A DNA stretch of 64,000 nt, from assembly GCA_025359205.1 (NCBI GenBank), contig JANYHD010000029.1:1-64000 (forward strand), given 5' to 3'. The position numbers and the translations under genes are program-made. The DNA is from Gammaproteobacteria bacterium. GTDB taxonomy: Bacteria > Pseudomonadota > Gammaproteobacteria > Steroidobacterales > Steroidobacteraceae. The notes beneath the pieces are model-generated. The model ran no database searches. It was not told the origin of the DNA and saw nothing but the letters and a program-made list of their open reading frames with translations. Shown here in pieces: positions 44,395-48,645 of this stretch. The first letter of the stretch is position 1; every line of letters starts with the position of its first letter.

Positions 44395-45144
44395 ATGACG
44401 GCACTGCCGATCCGCATCGTCCTCGTCGACACCTCGCATTCCGGCAATATCGGTGCCGCGGCGCGCGCCATGAAGAACATGGAGCTGACCGAACTGGCGT
44501 TGGTGCGGCCGCGGCAGTTTCCGCACCCGGACGCGCTGGCGCGTGCATCCGGCGCCGACGATGTGCTGGCCAGCGCGCGCGTATCCGGCACGCTGACTGA
44601 GGCGCTCGCGGGCTGTGGCCTGGTGCTGGCCGCAACGTCGCGCGCGCGCGATCACTACCACCGCGTGCTCGACGTGCGCGAAGCCGCGGCTCGCGCCGTG
44701 GCCGAGTGCGTGAATTCACCGGTGGCCATCGTGTTCGGCGGCGAACACAGCGGTCTCAGCAACGAGGATCTGGCGCCCGCGCATGCGCTGCTGCGCATCC
44801 CGACCGGCGCCGAGTACGCCTCGCTCAATCTGGCGATGGCGGTGCAGGTGGTCGCCTACGAGATCCTGCGCGCCCGCGGCGGCGTCGCTGCTGGTGCGAC
44901 GGAGCGCGAGCAGCCGTTGGCCGATCCGCCGGCGATGGCGCGGCTCTACGCACACCTGGAGGCGGTGCTCGAGGAGATCGATTTCCGCGATCGCACCCAG
45001 CAGGGCACCAACCTGATGAATCGCTTCCGCCGCTTCCTGCAACGCGCGGAACTCGACACCAATGAAGTGAACATCCTGCGCGGCCTGCTCACCGCCGTGC
45101 AGCAGCGCCGCCGGCGTGCGGGTGTATCGGTGCCGCCCGCATGA
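44395..45144 (+). CDS. trmJ: tRNA (cytidine/uridine-2'-O-)-methyltransferase TrmJ
   Basis: A 249-residue SPOUT methyltransferase that 2'-O-methylates position 32 of tRNAs. The knotted SAM-binding region is visible as IVLVDTSHSGNIGAAARAMK, IVFGGEHSGLSNEDL and IPTGAEYASLNLAMAVQVVAYE. A helical C-terminal extension (FRRFLQRAELDTNEVNILRGLLTAV) supports the dimer. It precedes the Isc genes, as in many gammaproteobacteria, and its stop overlaps the iscS start. Confidence 0.95.
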   Translation: MTALPIRIVLVDTSHSGNIGAAARAMKNMELTELALVRPRQFPHPDALARASGADDVLASARVSGTLTEALAGCGLVLAATSRARDHYHRVLDVREAAARAVAECVNSPVAIVFGGEHSGLSNEDLAPAHALLRIPTGAEYASLNLAMAVQVVAYEILRARGGVAAGATEREQPLADPPAMARLYAHLEAVLEEIDFRDRTQQGTNLMNRFRRFLQRAELDTNEVNILRGLLTAVQQRRRRAGVSVPPA

Positions 45145-46652
45145 GCAAGACCCGTCCGGTTTACCTCGACTACGCCGCCACCACGCCGATCGACGCGCGT
45201 GTCGCCGAGCGCATGGCCGAATGCCTGACGGCCGAGGGCACGTTCGGCAACCCGGCCTCGACGCACGCCTACGGGCGCGCGGCGCGGGCGCGCGTCGAGG
45301 CGGCGCGCACGCAGGTCGCCGCGCTGATCGGCGCGCGCACCAGCGACGTGATCTTCACCTCCGGTGCGACCGAGGCGAACAACCTCGCGATCCTGGGACT
45401 GGCGCGCGGCGCACGTGCGGCGCGCGGGGCGCAGGCGGTGCACGTGATCACGGCGCGCACCGAGCACAAGGCGGTGCTCGACCCGTGCCGGCAACTCGAG
45501 CGCGAGGGCTTTGCTGTCACCTTCCTGACGCCAGTCGAAGAAGGCCGCGTCATGCCCGAGCAGCTGCGCGCTGCGCTCCGTCCCGAGACCGTGCTGGTTT
45601 CGCTGATGCATGCCAACAACGAGACCGGCGCGATCCAGGATGTCGCGGCCTTCGGCGCGCTGTGCCGGGCGCACGGTGCGGCGCTGCACGTGGATGCGGC
45701 GCAGTCGGCCGGCAAGCTGCCAATCGACGTGCAGGCGATGGGCATCGACCTGCTCTCATTTACGGCCCACAAGCTGTACGGACCCAAGGGCGTTGGTGCG
45801 CTGTACGTGCAGCAGGGGCGGCGCGTGGCCCTGCAACCGCTCATGTACGGCGGCGGCCACGAGCGCGGCCTGCGCTCGGGCACGCTGGCCGTGCACCAGA
45901 TCGTCGGCTTCGGTGCGGCCTGCGAGCTCGCCTTGCAGCTCATGGGCGCCGAGGCCACGCGCCAGGCGGCATTGCGCGCGCGCCTGTGGGCTGGCGTTGG
46001 CGCGCTCCCGGGCGCGCTCCTCAACAGCCCGACCGTGCATGCGCTCCCTGGCGTGCTCAATGTGTCCTTCGCCGGTATCGAGGGCGAGAGCCTGCTGTTT
46101 GGATTGACCGAACTGGCCCTGGCGAGCGGCTCGGCCTGCAATTCAGACAGTGAGGAGCCCTCCTACGTGCTGCGCGCGATTGGGCGTGATCGCGAAACCG
46201 CCCAAAGCGCCTTGCGCTTCAGCCTGGGGCGCGGTACCCGCAGCGAGGACATCGACATCGCCATTGCCGCGGTGCAGCGCGAGGTGCTGCGCCTGCGATT
46301 GCTCGCTACGGACGCCACCGCGGCCGGTGGGGCCGCATTGGCTGGCGCGGCCAGCGGCGAGGCGGGCACCCGCGAGCAGGGCACTTGGGTCCGGTTTATG
46401 TTGAAAGCAGCCAACGGCAGGATAGCCAGCGCCAGCTATCAGGCCTATGGCTGCCCGCAGACCCTGGCGGTCTGCGAGTGGCTCGCAGGCCAGCTCCCGG
46501 GGTGCCCTTGGGCCGATCCGGGGGTGGGCGGGGCGCTGGACTGGGTCGAGGCCATGCAATTGCCGGCCGATCGCCTGACGCGGCTCCTGATCATCGAGGA
46601 TGCCCTGCGCGCGGCGTTAGCCGCCGCACAGCGCCAGGTCGCCCCGGGGTAG
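45141..46652 (+). CDS. iscS: cysteine desulfurase IscS fused to a degenerate IscU-like domain
   Basis: A 503-residue protein, about 100 longer than E. coli IscS. Residues 1-390 are a class V PLP cysteine desulfurase with PLP lysine K211 (TAHKLYGPKG) and persulfide cysteine C333 (ASGSACNSDSEEPSYVLRA). After an Ala/Gly linker, residues about 412-500 align with the scaffold IscU: WVRFMLKAANGRIASASYQA, YGCPQTLA (C438) and IIEDALRAALAA. Of the IscU cluster ligands only the YGC cysteine is kept; the positions of IscU C37, D39, H105 and C106 read Q, T, R and L. It probably cannot hold a cluster itself and may accept sulfur or modulate the desulfurase. Overlaps trmJ by four bases. Confidence 0.88.
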   Translation: MSKTRPVYLDYAATTPIDARVAERMAECLTAEGTFGNPASTHAYGRAARARVEAARTQVAALIGARTSDVIFTSGATEANNLAILGLARGARAARGAQAVHVITARTEHKAVLDPCRQLEREGFAVTFLTPVEEGRVMPEQLRAALRPETVLVSLMHANNETGAIQDVAAFGALCRAHGAALHVDAAQSAGKLPIDVQAMGIDLLSFTAHKLYGPKGVGALYVQQGRRVALQPLMYGGGHERGLRSGTLAVHQIVGFGAACELALQLMGAEATRQAALRARLWAGVGALPGALLNSPTVHALPGVLNVSFAGIEGESLLFGLTELALASGSACNSDSEEPSYVLRAIGRDRETAQSALRFSLGRGTRSEDIDIAIAAVQREVLRLRLLATDATAAGGAALAGAASGEAGTREQGTWVRFMLKAANGRIASASYQAYGCPQTLAVCEWLAGQLPGCPWADPGVGGALDWVEAMQLPADRLTRLLIIEDALRAALAAAQRQVAPG

Positions 46653-46682: not shown

Positions 46683-47006
46683 ATGAGCATCTCACTGACA
46701 GCTTCCGCGGCCGATCGGGTCCGCAGCCACCTGGCCAGCCGGGGGCGCGGTCTCGGGTTGCGGCTTGGGATCAAGACCACCGGCTGCTCCGGGTTCAGCT
46801 ATGTCATCGACTATGCCGATGCGGCGGCCCCGAACGACCTCGTGTTCGAGGACCAGGGGGTCAAGGTGTTCGTCGATCCCGCGAGTTTCCCCATGCTCGA
46901 TGGCACGCAGGTCGATTTCGTCCGCAAGGGGCTGAACGAGGCCTTCCAGTTCGCCAACCCGAACGTCAAGGCTGAATGCGGCTGCGGCGAGAGCTTCACG
47001 GTCTAA
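46683..47006 (+). CDS. iscA: iron-sulfur cluster assembly protein IscA
   Basis: A 107-residue A-type carrier that delivers clusters or iron to target proteins. The three ligand cysteines are in TGCSGFSY and ECGCGESF, with the usual spacing to the C-terminus. It lies 30 bases after the iscS fusion. No iscR, iscU, hscB, hscA or iscX gene is present around it, so this is a reduced isc locus. A ribosome-binding AGGA lies about 11 bases upstream of the ATG. Confidence 0.93.
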
Positions 47007-47116: not shown

Positions 47117-47545
47117 ATGGCGCTCGAGCGCACCCTGTCGATTGTCAAACCCGACGGCGTAGCCCGCAACCTGATCGGCGACGTCTACCACCGCTTCGAG
47201 CTTGCCGGACTGCGCATCGTCGCGGCCCGCATGTTGCACCTGTCGACCGCGCAGGCCGAGGCCTTCTACGAAGTGCACCGCGAGCGCCCGTTCTACCAGG
47301 ACCTGGTGCGCTACATGAGCTCGGGTCCGGTGATCGCGCAGGTGCTCGAGGGCGACAACGCCATCGCGCGTAACCGCGACATCATGGGCGCCACTGATCC
47401 GAAGAAAGCTGCGCCTGGCACCATCCGCGCCGATCTCGCGCAGAGCATCGAGGCCAATGTCGTGCACGGTTCCGACGCGAGCGAGACCGCGGCGCGCGAG
47501 ATCAGCTTCTTCTTCAGCGGCACGGAAATCTGCCCCCGCCCTTAA
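47117..47545 (+). CDS. ndk: nucleoside diphosphate kinase
   Basis: A 142-residue enzyme balancing nucleoside triphosphates by a phosphohistidine intermediate, H117 in [12 protein letters not shown]. The N-terminus [15 protein letters not shown] and the [20 protein letters not shown] segment are diagnostic. AGGAG lies seven bases before the ATG. A possible promoter (TTGCTG at 47045, TAAACT at 47069, spacer 18) lies upstream. The gene is followed three bases later by rlmN. Confidence 0.97.
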
Positions 47546-47547
47546 AG

Positions 47548-48645
47548 GTGCTTGCCAGCTTGGACACGCGCGTCAATCTGCTCGGACTCCCGCCATCGGA
47601 ACTGGAATCCTGGGTGCAGGCGGTGGGCTCGCGCCCGTTCCGCGCGCGCCAGCTGCAGCATTGGCTGTACAAGCGCGGCGTGGCGGAATTCGATGCCATG
47701 ACGGACCTGGCGAAGGATTTCCGCGCCCAGCTCGCCGCGCAGGCGCAAGTCAGGTTGCCCGAGATCGTACTGGCGCGCCAGTCGGCCGACGGCACGCGCA
47801 AGTGGCTGCTGCGCGCGGATGCGTCGCAGGCCTTCGAGATGGTGTTTATTCCCGAGACTGACCGGGGCACGCTGTGCATTTCATCGCAGGTGGGCTGCGT
47901 GCTTGATTGCACCTTCTGCTCGACCGCGCGGCAGGGCTTCAACCGCAATCTCACCACCGCCGAGATCGTCGGCCAGGTGTGGCTCGCCAACCGCGAGCTC
48001 GGCTTCGAGCCCGGCGGCGAACGGCTTGTGACCAACGTTGTGTTCATGGGCATGGGCGAACCGCTCGCGAATTTCCGCAACGTGGTGCCCGCAACGCAGA
48101 TCCTGCTGCACGATTCCTGCTTCGACCTGTCGCGGCGGCGCGTGACGCTGTCGACCGCCGGGCTCGTGCCACAGATCTACAAGCTCGCGGAAGTGAGTAA
48201 TGTCGCGCTGGCCGTCTCGCTGCATGCCGCCGACGATGCGCTGCGTGACACGCTGGTGCCGATCAACCGGGTGCACCCGATCGCCGAGCTGCTCGAGGCC
48301 TGCTGGCATTACCTCGACGAGCAGAATGGACGCAGCGTAACCTTCGAATACGTGATGCTCGATGGCATCAATGATTCGCCGGCACAGGCGCGTGCGCTGG
48401 CGCAGCTGCTGGCAGACCGGCCAGCCAAGGTCAACATGATTCCATTCAACCCCTTCCCCGGCACCCAGTACCGGCGTTCCAGCGACGCGGCCATCTGGCA
48501 ATTCCGCGATGAATTGCTCAAGCGCGGCGTGATGGCGACAGTGCGCCGCACGCGCGGCGAGGACATCGACGCCGCCTGCGGGCAACTGGTCGGCCGCGTG
48601 CAGGACCGCACCACGGCCCGCATCGGCGCGCGGGTGCGGGCGTGA
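47548..48645 (+). CDS. rlmN: dual-specificity rRNA/tRNA methyltransferase RlmN
   Basis: A 365-residue radical-SAM enzyme that makes 2-methyladenosine at 23S rRNA A2503 and tRNA A37. The [4Fe-4S] motif is C117-x3-C121-x2-C124 (GCVLDCTFCS). Conserved FMGMGEPLAN, SLHAADDALRD and the C-terminal RRTRGEDIDAACGQL, with the methyl-carrying cysteine, are intact. A GTG start lies two bases after the ndk stop. The stop overlaps pilW. Confidence 0.96.
   Translation: MLASLDTRVNLLGLPPSELESWVQAVGSRPFRARQLQHWLYKRGVAEFDAMTDLAKDFRAQLAAQAQVRLPEIVLARQSADGTRKWLLRADASQAFEMVFIPETDRGTLCISSQVGCVLDCTFCSTARQGFNRNLTTAEIVGQVWLANRELGFEPGGERLVTNVVFMGMGEPLANFRNVVPATQILLHDSCFDLSRRRVTLSTAGLVPQIYKLAEVSNVALAVSLHAADDALRDTLVPINRVHPIAELLEACWHYLDEQNGRSVTFEYVMLDGINDSPAQARALAQLLADRPAKVNMIPFNPFPGTQYRRSSDAAIWQFRDELLKRGVMATVRRTRGEDIDAACGQLVGRVQDRTTARIGARVRA

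Follow-up and report, generated by a model that had tools for sequence, protein, structure and literature searches.

How the residues of the scaffold protein IscU are divided among sulfur transfer, metal binding and release by the chaperone is still debated, and one of its motifs, LPPVK, is the site bound by HscA. The contacts of IscU with the cysteine desulfurase IscS in Escherichia coli are reported as Y3, Y11, G38, V40, K42, K59-G64 and K103; the complex is described as requiring the C-terminal tail of IscS together with K103 and helix alpha1 of IscU, and the substitution K103E in IscU disrupts the binding (PMC2854127). For the human protein ISCU2, the persulfide acceptor is reported to be C138, and C95 remains unpersulfidated even in the C138S variant, despite lying 3.4 Angstrom from the donor persulfide; C95 binds iron, which the authors name as one possible reason for its failure to accept sulfur (PMC11021402). 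With a constant numbering offset of 32, C138 and C95 of ISCU2 correspond to C106 and C63 in the E. coli numbering used below.

The window analysed here is a stretch of 64,000 nucleotides from a gammaproteobacterium of the order Steroidobacterales. At 45141-46652 on the forward strand, which carries all the window features described below, it holds a single uninterrupted frame of 503 amino acids in which IscS is fused to a degenerate IscU (iscS-U*). Residues 1-386 (45141..46298) form an IscS-type (class V, PLP) cysteine desulfurase domain, matched by the Pfam profile Aminotran_5 over residues 7-372 with 266.3 bits; two NCBIfam IscS models also match it, at 495 bits (equivalog cut-off 548) and 477.4 bits (equivalog cut-off 643.2), both short of the cut-off. 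Five residues of this domain are invariant in a 34-row alignment that includes the window: H109, D185 and Q188, the catalytic His, Asp and Gln, and K211 and C333, the PLP lysine and the loop cysteine (C333 codon at 46137-46139). A linker of about residues 387-400 (46299..46340), with pLDDT below 50 at residues 393-400 in a monomer model of the full length, leads to the degenerate IscU domain at residues 401-495 (46341..46625, the PF01592 match). Within the motif YGCPQTL of this domain, C438 (46452..46454) aligns with C63 of E. coli IscU. A second cysteine, C445, lies seven residues further on (the two spanning 46452-46475), and 27 of the 86 degenerate domains counted below have a cysteine at that position.

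The upstream frame at the trmJ position (44395..45144, SpoU methylase family; SpoU_methylase 94.5 bits, Pfam) is overlapped by the iscS start by 4 bases. Immediately downstream of the fusion lies iscA (46683..47006; TIGR02011 158.2 bits, cut-off 150.6), followed by ndk (47117..47545; NDK 191.1 bits, Pfam) and rlmN (47548..48645; RlmN_N 70.9 bits and Radical_SAM, Pfam), and the places of trmJ, ndk and rlmN agree with a conserved gene order. The original prediction had described a reduced isc locus in which only iscA follows, and we likewise find no separate iscU, hscA, hscB or iscR between trmJ and rlmN in the window.

The tail domain is a descendant of IscU itself, so that the IscU-derived domain proposed to be built into this desulfurase is borne out by the family profile, by the predicted fold and by its recurrence in the same place across the order. 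NifU_N covers residues 401-495 with 24.1 bits for the tail alone versus 19.8 bits in the whole protein (Pfam cut-off 22), and with 22.8 bits at 46341-46625 in a six-frame search. No NCBIfam model exceeds its cut-off on the tail domain, the iscU model TIGR01999 reaching 19.1 bits, far under its cut-off of 192.4. The SufU equivalog TIGR01994 has no match to the tail at E <=1, and scores 123.7 bits (cut-off 92.5) on the separate SufU of the same genome. When the PDB was searched with a profile built from 31 members of the family (one row with a mistyped start), E. coli IscU structures were recovered at E values of 3e-23 and 1.6e-22 and the best SufU at 6.1e-6.

The fold comparison agrees with this. 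AlphaFold2, run with 37 sequences, gives a confident model of the tail (pLDDT 90.4, pTM 0.81) with three strands and three helices, and the top 33 PDB matches to it in Foldseek all belong to scaffolds of the IscU family. Human ISCU2 in a persulfide-transfer complex comes first (E 4.1e-8, TM 0.78); the human protein reaches TM 0.80 and E. coli IscU TM 0.76, and SufU ranks lower, at TM 0.62. The VIA Z scores follow the same order (human ISCU2 15.5, E. coli IscU 13.5, best SufU 9.9). The alignment rows used for the structure work were 21 of 24 for the fused form, 12 of 13 for split IscS and 36 of 40 for the tail, near-copies having been dropped. An origin of the tail from SufU is rejected, since both the profile and the predicted fold are closer to IscU. 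SufE is absent from the profile matches listed and from the best 50 of Foldseek and of VIA, an absence that excludes nothing. The C-terminal domains of lipoate ligases share the IscU-like fold, with a VIA Z of about 8 against the tail model.

Of 60 genomes examined in the order, the window's own included, 57 have a degenerate IscU; the search found 56, and in the 57th (G041) iscS and iscA flank a version of 124 aa. No such domain was found in the remaining three genomes (G014, which is 72% complete, G028 and G047). Of the 56 loci, 55 have iscS upstream on the same strand, the exception (L044) being cut off within the domain by the end of a contig, and 55 have iscA downstream, L015 being without a detected iscA. 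The order suhB-trmJ-iscS-U*-iscA-ndk-rlmN-pilF recurs, within the limits of each stretch, in most of 28 loci compared, one of which (L167) is a stretch beyond the window; the exceptions are genome G278, which differs at L161 and L162, and L165, where iscA was not detected. In E. coli the isc operon lies at the corresponding place and iscU stands between iscS and iscA, which makes the degenerate domain iscU by position.

Beyond the order, a search of the class matched 173 of 276 genomes, and most of the matches listed score like canonical IscU. Among the best 30 loci of this search we observed degenerate forms outside the order in G094, G120, G179, G237 and G278, and partial forms in G261 and G063, with second matches in G120 and G179 standing outside the counts. 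A sample of the phylum (299 genomes, E 1e-24) returned matches only in G000 and G120, at a threshold by which weaker degenerate forms would be missed. G278 has a fused degenerate IscU near trmJ, with no iscA found adjacent, and elsewhere in its genome a canonical isc cluster and HscB, implying that loss of the ISC system is not a precondition for the degenerate gene.

The fusion itself is found in 19 of the 56 loci of the order, and fused and split states are both present within the window's own genus. On a quick IscS tree of 98 rows, which left out 3 rows without IscS and 6 short rows and leaves 35 of its 95 inner branches unresolved, the distribution of the two states needs at least 7 changes, 3 of them forced by well-supported branches. 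The basic design is a conserved pair of separate genes, and the fusion is a variation on it that recurs. The original prediction of a scaffold domain built into IscS is in this respect too narrow, given the fraction of fused loci and the number of changes between the states.

To count residues lost and kept, we reduced 123 loci with the domain by 16 identical cores to 107, consisting of 86 degenerate domains, 19 canonical ones and 2 intermediates (L128 and L147); loci fetched for SUF, HscB or SufU matches and re-fetched copies were excluded beforehand, and G041 is not among the 86. At the positions of the five ligands C37, D39, C63, H105 and C106 of E. coli IscU, the aligned window tail reads Q, T, C, T and R. 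The earlier reading of a ligand-poor domain with C438 as the sole ligand left is thus correct, as are Q and T at C37 and D39, but the R and L it placed at H105 and C106 were one residue off. Each of the five ligands is present in 19/19 canonical rows; the 86 degenerate domains keep C37 and D39 in none, H105 in 1, C106 in 2 and C63 in 83, and C63 ranks among the seven alignment columns that are most conserved in the family. Because a pattern scan requiring GCP had supplied 25 of the 86 rows, C63 was recounted without them and found in 58/61. The three domains lacking C63 are L025 (fused, same genus), L058 and L125. In L025 (G006, tail at about 1516-1761) the site reads FAAGPV; GR remains at 105/106, as does the cysteine that follows the site by seven positions. 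L037 and L055 are intermediates that still hold C106. L128 (G261) and L147 (G063) have lost C37 and D39 with H105 and C106 present, L147 also being without C63, and HscB is not over cut-off in either genome.

Around the remaining cysteine the active site looks rebuilt when the sequences are compared, with G64 replaced by P in 85/86 domains and R at the C106 position in 65/86; in the five degenerate domains outside the order, R106 and H65 each occur in 0/5. The positions facing IscS are largely kept: K or R stands at docking position 103 in 82/86 domains, G62 is found in 83/86 and G38 in 61/86, and the V40 contact position is mostly W or R in the degenerate family. The exact LPPVK motif occurs in 0/86 degenerate versus 19/19 canonical domains. 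On the side of the desulfurase, the C-tail motif of IscS is complete in 17/17 canonical versus 0/46 split loci, and a remnant, SP[LVI]W, is found in 2/46 split loci and in 0/39 fused ones after the core, the split locus L080 running into unread bases. With the E. coli-type C-tail absent, docking to IscS may differ in this family. Helix alpha1 is aligned in 46/46 split forms, mostly with a Y/L..V/T...F pattern, and is missing in 24/39 fused forms.

HscB is over cut-off in 0/60 genomes of the order and in 1/14 controls, presumably E. coli; in a set of 24, it is over cut-off in 11/11 genomes with canonical IscU and in G278, and in 0/6 genomes of the order and 0/6 others whose isc place is occupied by a degenerate or partial form. 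The loss of LPPVK thus runs parallel to that of HscB. The IscR equivalog is over cut-off in 0/60 genomes of the order versus 1/14 controls. The SufB profile matches in 60/60 genomes of the order and is over cut-off in 55, the remaining 5 matches being short, partial or SufD-like, in genomes that are 72-91% complete. SUF had been named beforehand as the other system with which such a desulfurase could act, and the window's own genome has a suf cluster with a SUF regulator and sufB, C, D, S, U and T, in which SufD scores 179 bits, under the equivalog cut-off of 222; the one other NifU_N match of this genome beyond the window is SufU. PF00266 has 11 matches in the same genome, and of two examined beyond SufS and IscS one is Aminotran_5 (Pfam). 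The window's own genome, 97.4% complete, yielded no TusA (PF01206). Across the order TusA is over cut-off in 8/60 genomes versus 12/13 canonical-IscU genomes, a count in which some genomes of the order are incomplete (down to 72%) and 2 of the 52 TusA-less genomes show weak matches. TusA is present in 6/7 genomes outside the order with degenerate or partial IscU, so that the link between TusA loss and the domain is weak and may reflect shared ancestry; replacement of TusA as the sole reason for the domain is rejected on the same ground.

The loss of the metal-binding residues and the occasional fusion suggest that this IscU derivative handles sulfur rather than building clusters. We put the chances at about even that it is a metal-free derivative of IscU kept as an IscS-bound, single-cysteine acceptor or relay of sulfur, with SUF building the clusters. 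On this reading IscU stayed in its ancestral place between iscS and iscA, presumably after HscB and IscR had been lost and SUF had taken over; it has shed its metal- and chaperone-binding parts and kept the part facing IscS together with C438. As a relay it would occupy the IscU site on the desulfurase, where C333 on the mobile loop may hand its persulfide to C438, and C438 in turn would pass sulfur to IscA or to sulfur-carrying enzymes otherwise served by TusA. In the lineage of the window a covalent tether may have replaced the N-terminal docking helix of IscU, the loss of helix alpha1 from many fused forms and from none of the split ones (0/46) making it appear as if the covalent link took over its job. 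With the metal gone, the iron obstacle seen at C95 of ISCU2 would be gone as well, which makes C438 a plausible acceptor. Against a relay stand the loss in the family of C106, the position of the ISCU2 acceptor, and the absence of C63 in 3/86 domains. The missing C-tail of IscS, the W or R at V40, the lack of R106 and H65 outside the order, the TusA kept by most genomes with such forms there, the two systems side by side in G278 and the faster change of the tail also weigh against it. More tentatively, we propose that the order possesses a metal-free persulfide carrier derived from IscU, fused to IscS several times and feeding IscA and TusA-type clients, which would add a third acceptor type to IscU and TusA, in a three-part IscS/U*/IscA system working alongside SUF.

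The main rival to the relay is that the domain has a docking or regulatory role without sulfur chemistry of its own, filling the IscU site, shaping or gating the C333 loop and blocking or selecting other acceptors, with C438 mostly structural. This possibility, which we judge somewhat doubtful, is consistent with the retention of the domain in the three cases without C63, one of them fused and from the same genus, with the conservation of K/R103 and G62, and with the report that IscU and TusA of E. coli compete for IscS and alter its activity (PMC11302665). It agrees less well with the place of C63 among the seven most conserved columns, and if the role were purely structural, the new P64 and the R106 frequent within the order would be hard to account for. 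The near-universal C63 could also mean that the domain is still a scaffold, binding a cluster through C438 and cysteines of another subunit, such as a second copy or IscA, encoded immediately downstream in 55/56 loci. We regard this as improbable in view of the loss of four of the five ligands in nearly all members, the lack of any HscB over cut-off in the 60 genomes and the presence of a SUF system, with SufB over cut-off in most of them.

The original prediction spoke of a scaffold relic, and a decaying, functionless remnant carried along by its neighbours would account for the lost ligands. Among 10 pairs from five congeners, dN/dS is 0.14-0.35 for the tail, 0.13-0.20 for IscS and 0.04-0.16 for IscA, and the tail evolves faster than both other genes in 10/10 pairs, as a relic might; three of the 60 genomes, one of them only 72% complete, also gave no domain. 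The same values show that the tail is under purifying selection, and with a domain present in 57/60 genomes, a fold predicted with confidence, C63 in 83/86 and the following P in 85/86, the domain does not look like a relic: the fusion and the domain both recur in relatives, where the tail is not an unconserved, low-complexity sequence. We therefore reject a functionless relic, which we consider very improbable, on the grounds of selection and conservation. The joining of two genes by misassembly or a frame shift has to be considered for a window that, like most of its relatives, comes from a draft assembly, the named relatives being metagenome-assembled. It is rejected as extremely improbable because there are 39 distinct fused sequences, and the fused frame stays open in five congeneric genomes despite a silent divergence (pS) of 0.34-0.46 in the IscS part.

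Compared with known systems, the degenerate domain is nearest to IscU, its likely ancestor, with which it shares the fold, the gene place between iscS and iscA, C63, K103 and the EDA helix, and from which it differs in lacking C37, D39, H105, C106, LPPVK and an HscB partner, in its frequent fusion to IscS and, in the window, in the missing N-terminal helix. SufU, a protein of the U type, accepts sulfur from a desulfurase and keeps its metal ligands; it belongs to the same superfamily, but the degenerate domain is nearer to IscU in profile and fold and occurs in a genome with a separate SufU. SufE, which has one cysteine on an IscU-like fold and SufS rather than IscS as its partner, would work alike if the relay reading holds. 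So would TusA, which accepts sulfur from IscS on a single cysteine, has Cys-Pro at its active site and folds differently from IscU. In SufDSU one chain combines a desulfurase with a U-type protein and SufD. TusA is reported to bind elsewhere on IscS than IscU does (PMC2854127). SufDSU is named in oxymonads (PMC10703272), and in contrast to the fusion described here it is eukaryotic, of the SUF type and includes SufD. Mycobacterium tuberculosis has a lone iscS from an isc operon that was cut down, with SUF building the clusters, and differs in that the abstract of that study describes no IscU derivative or fusion (PMC10848736). None of the open-access papers listed describes such a degenerate IscU or its fusion to IscS, and it may be in print elsewhere, for instance in subscription papers or preprints. 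In these genomes the metal- and chaperone-binding parts of IscU have been naturally removed together, with the IscS-facing part and one cysteine kept, across many genera. Degenerate IscUs are thus natural separation-of-function forms, with intermediates that retain C106 or both H105 and C106, and in the fusion, desulfurase and acceptor are covalently fixed to each other, which suits structure work.
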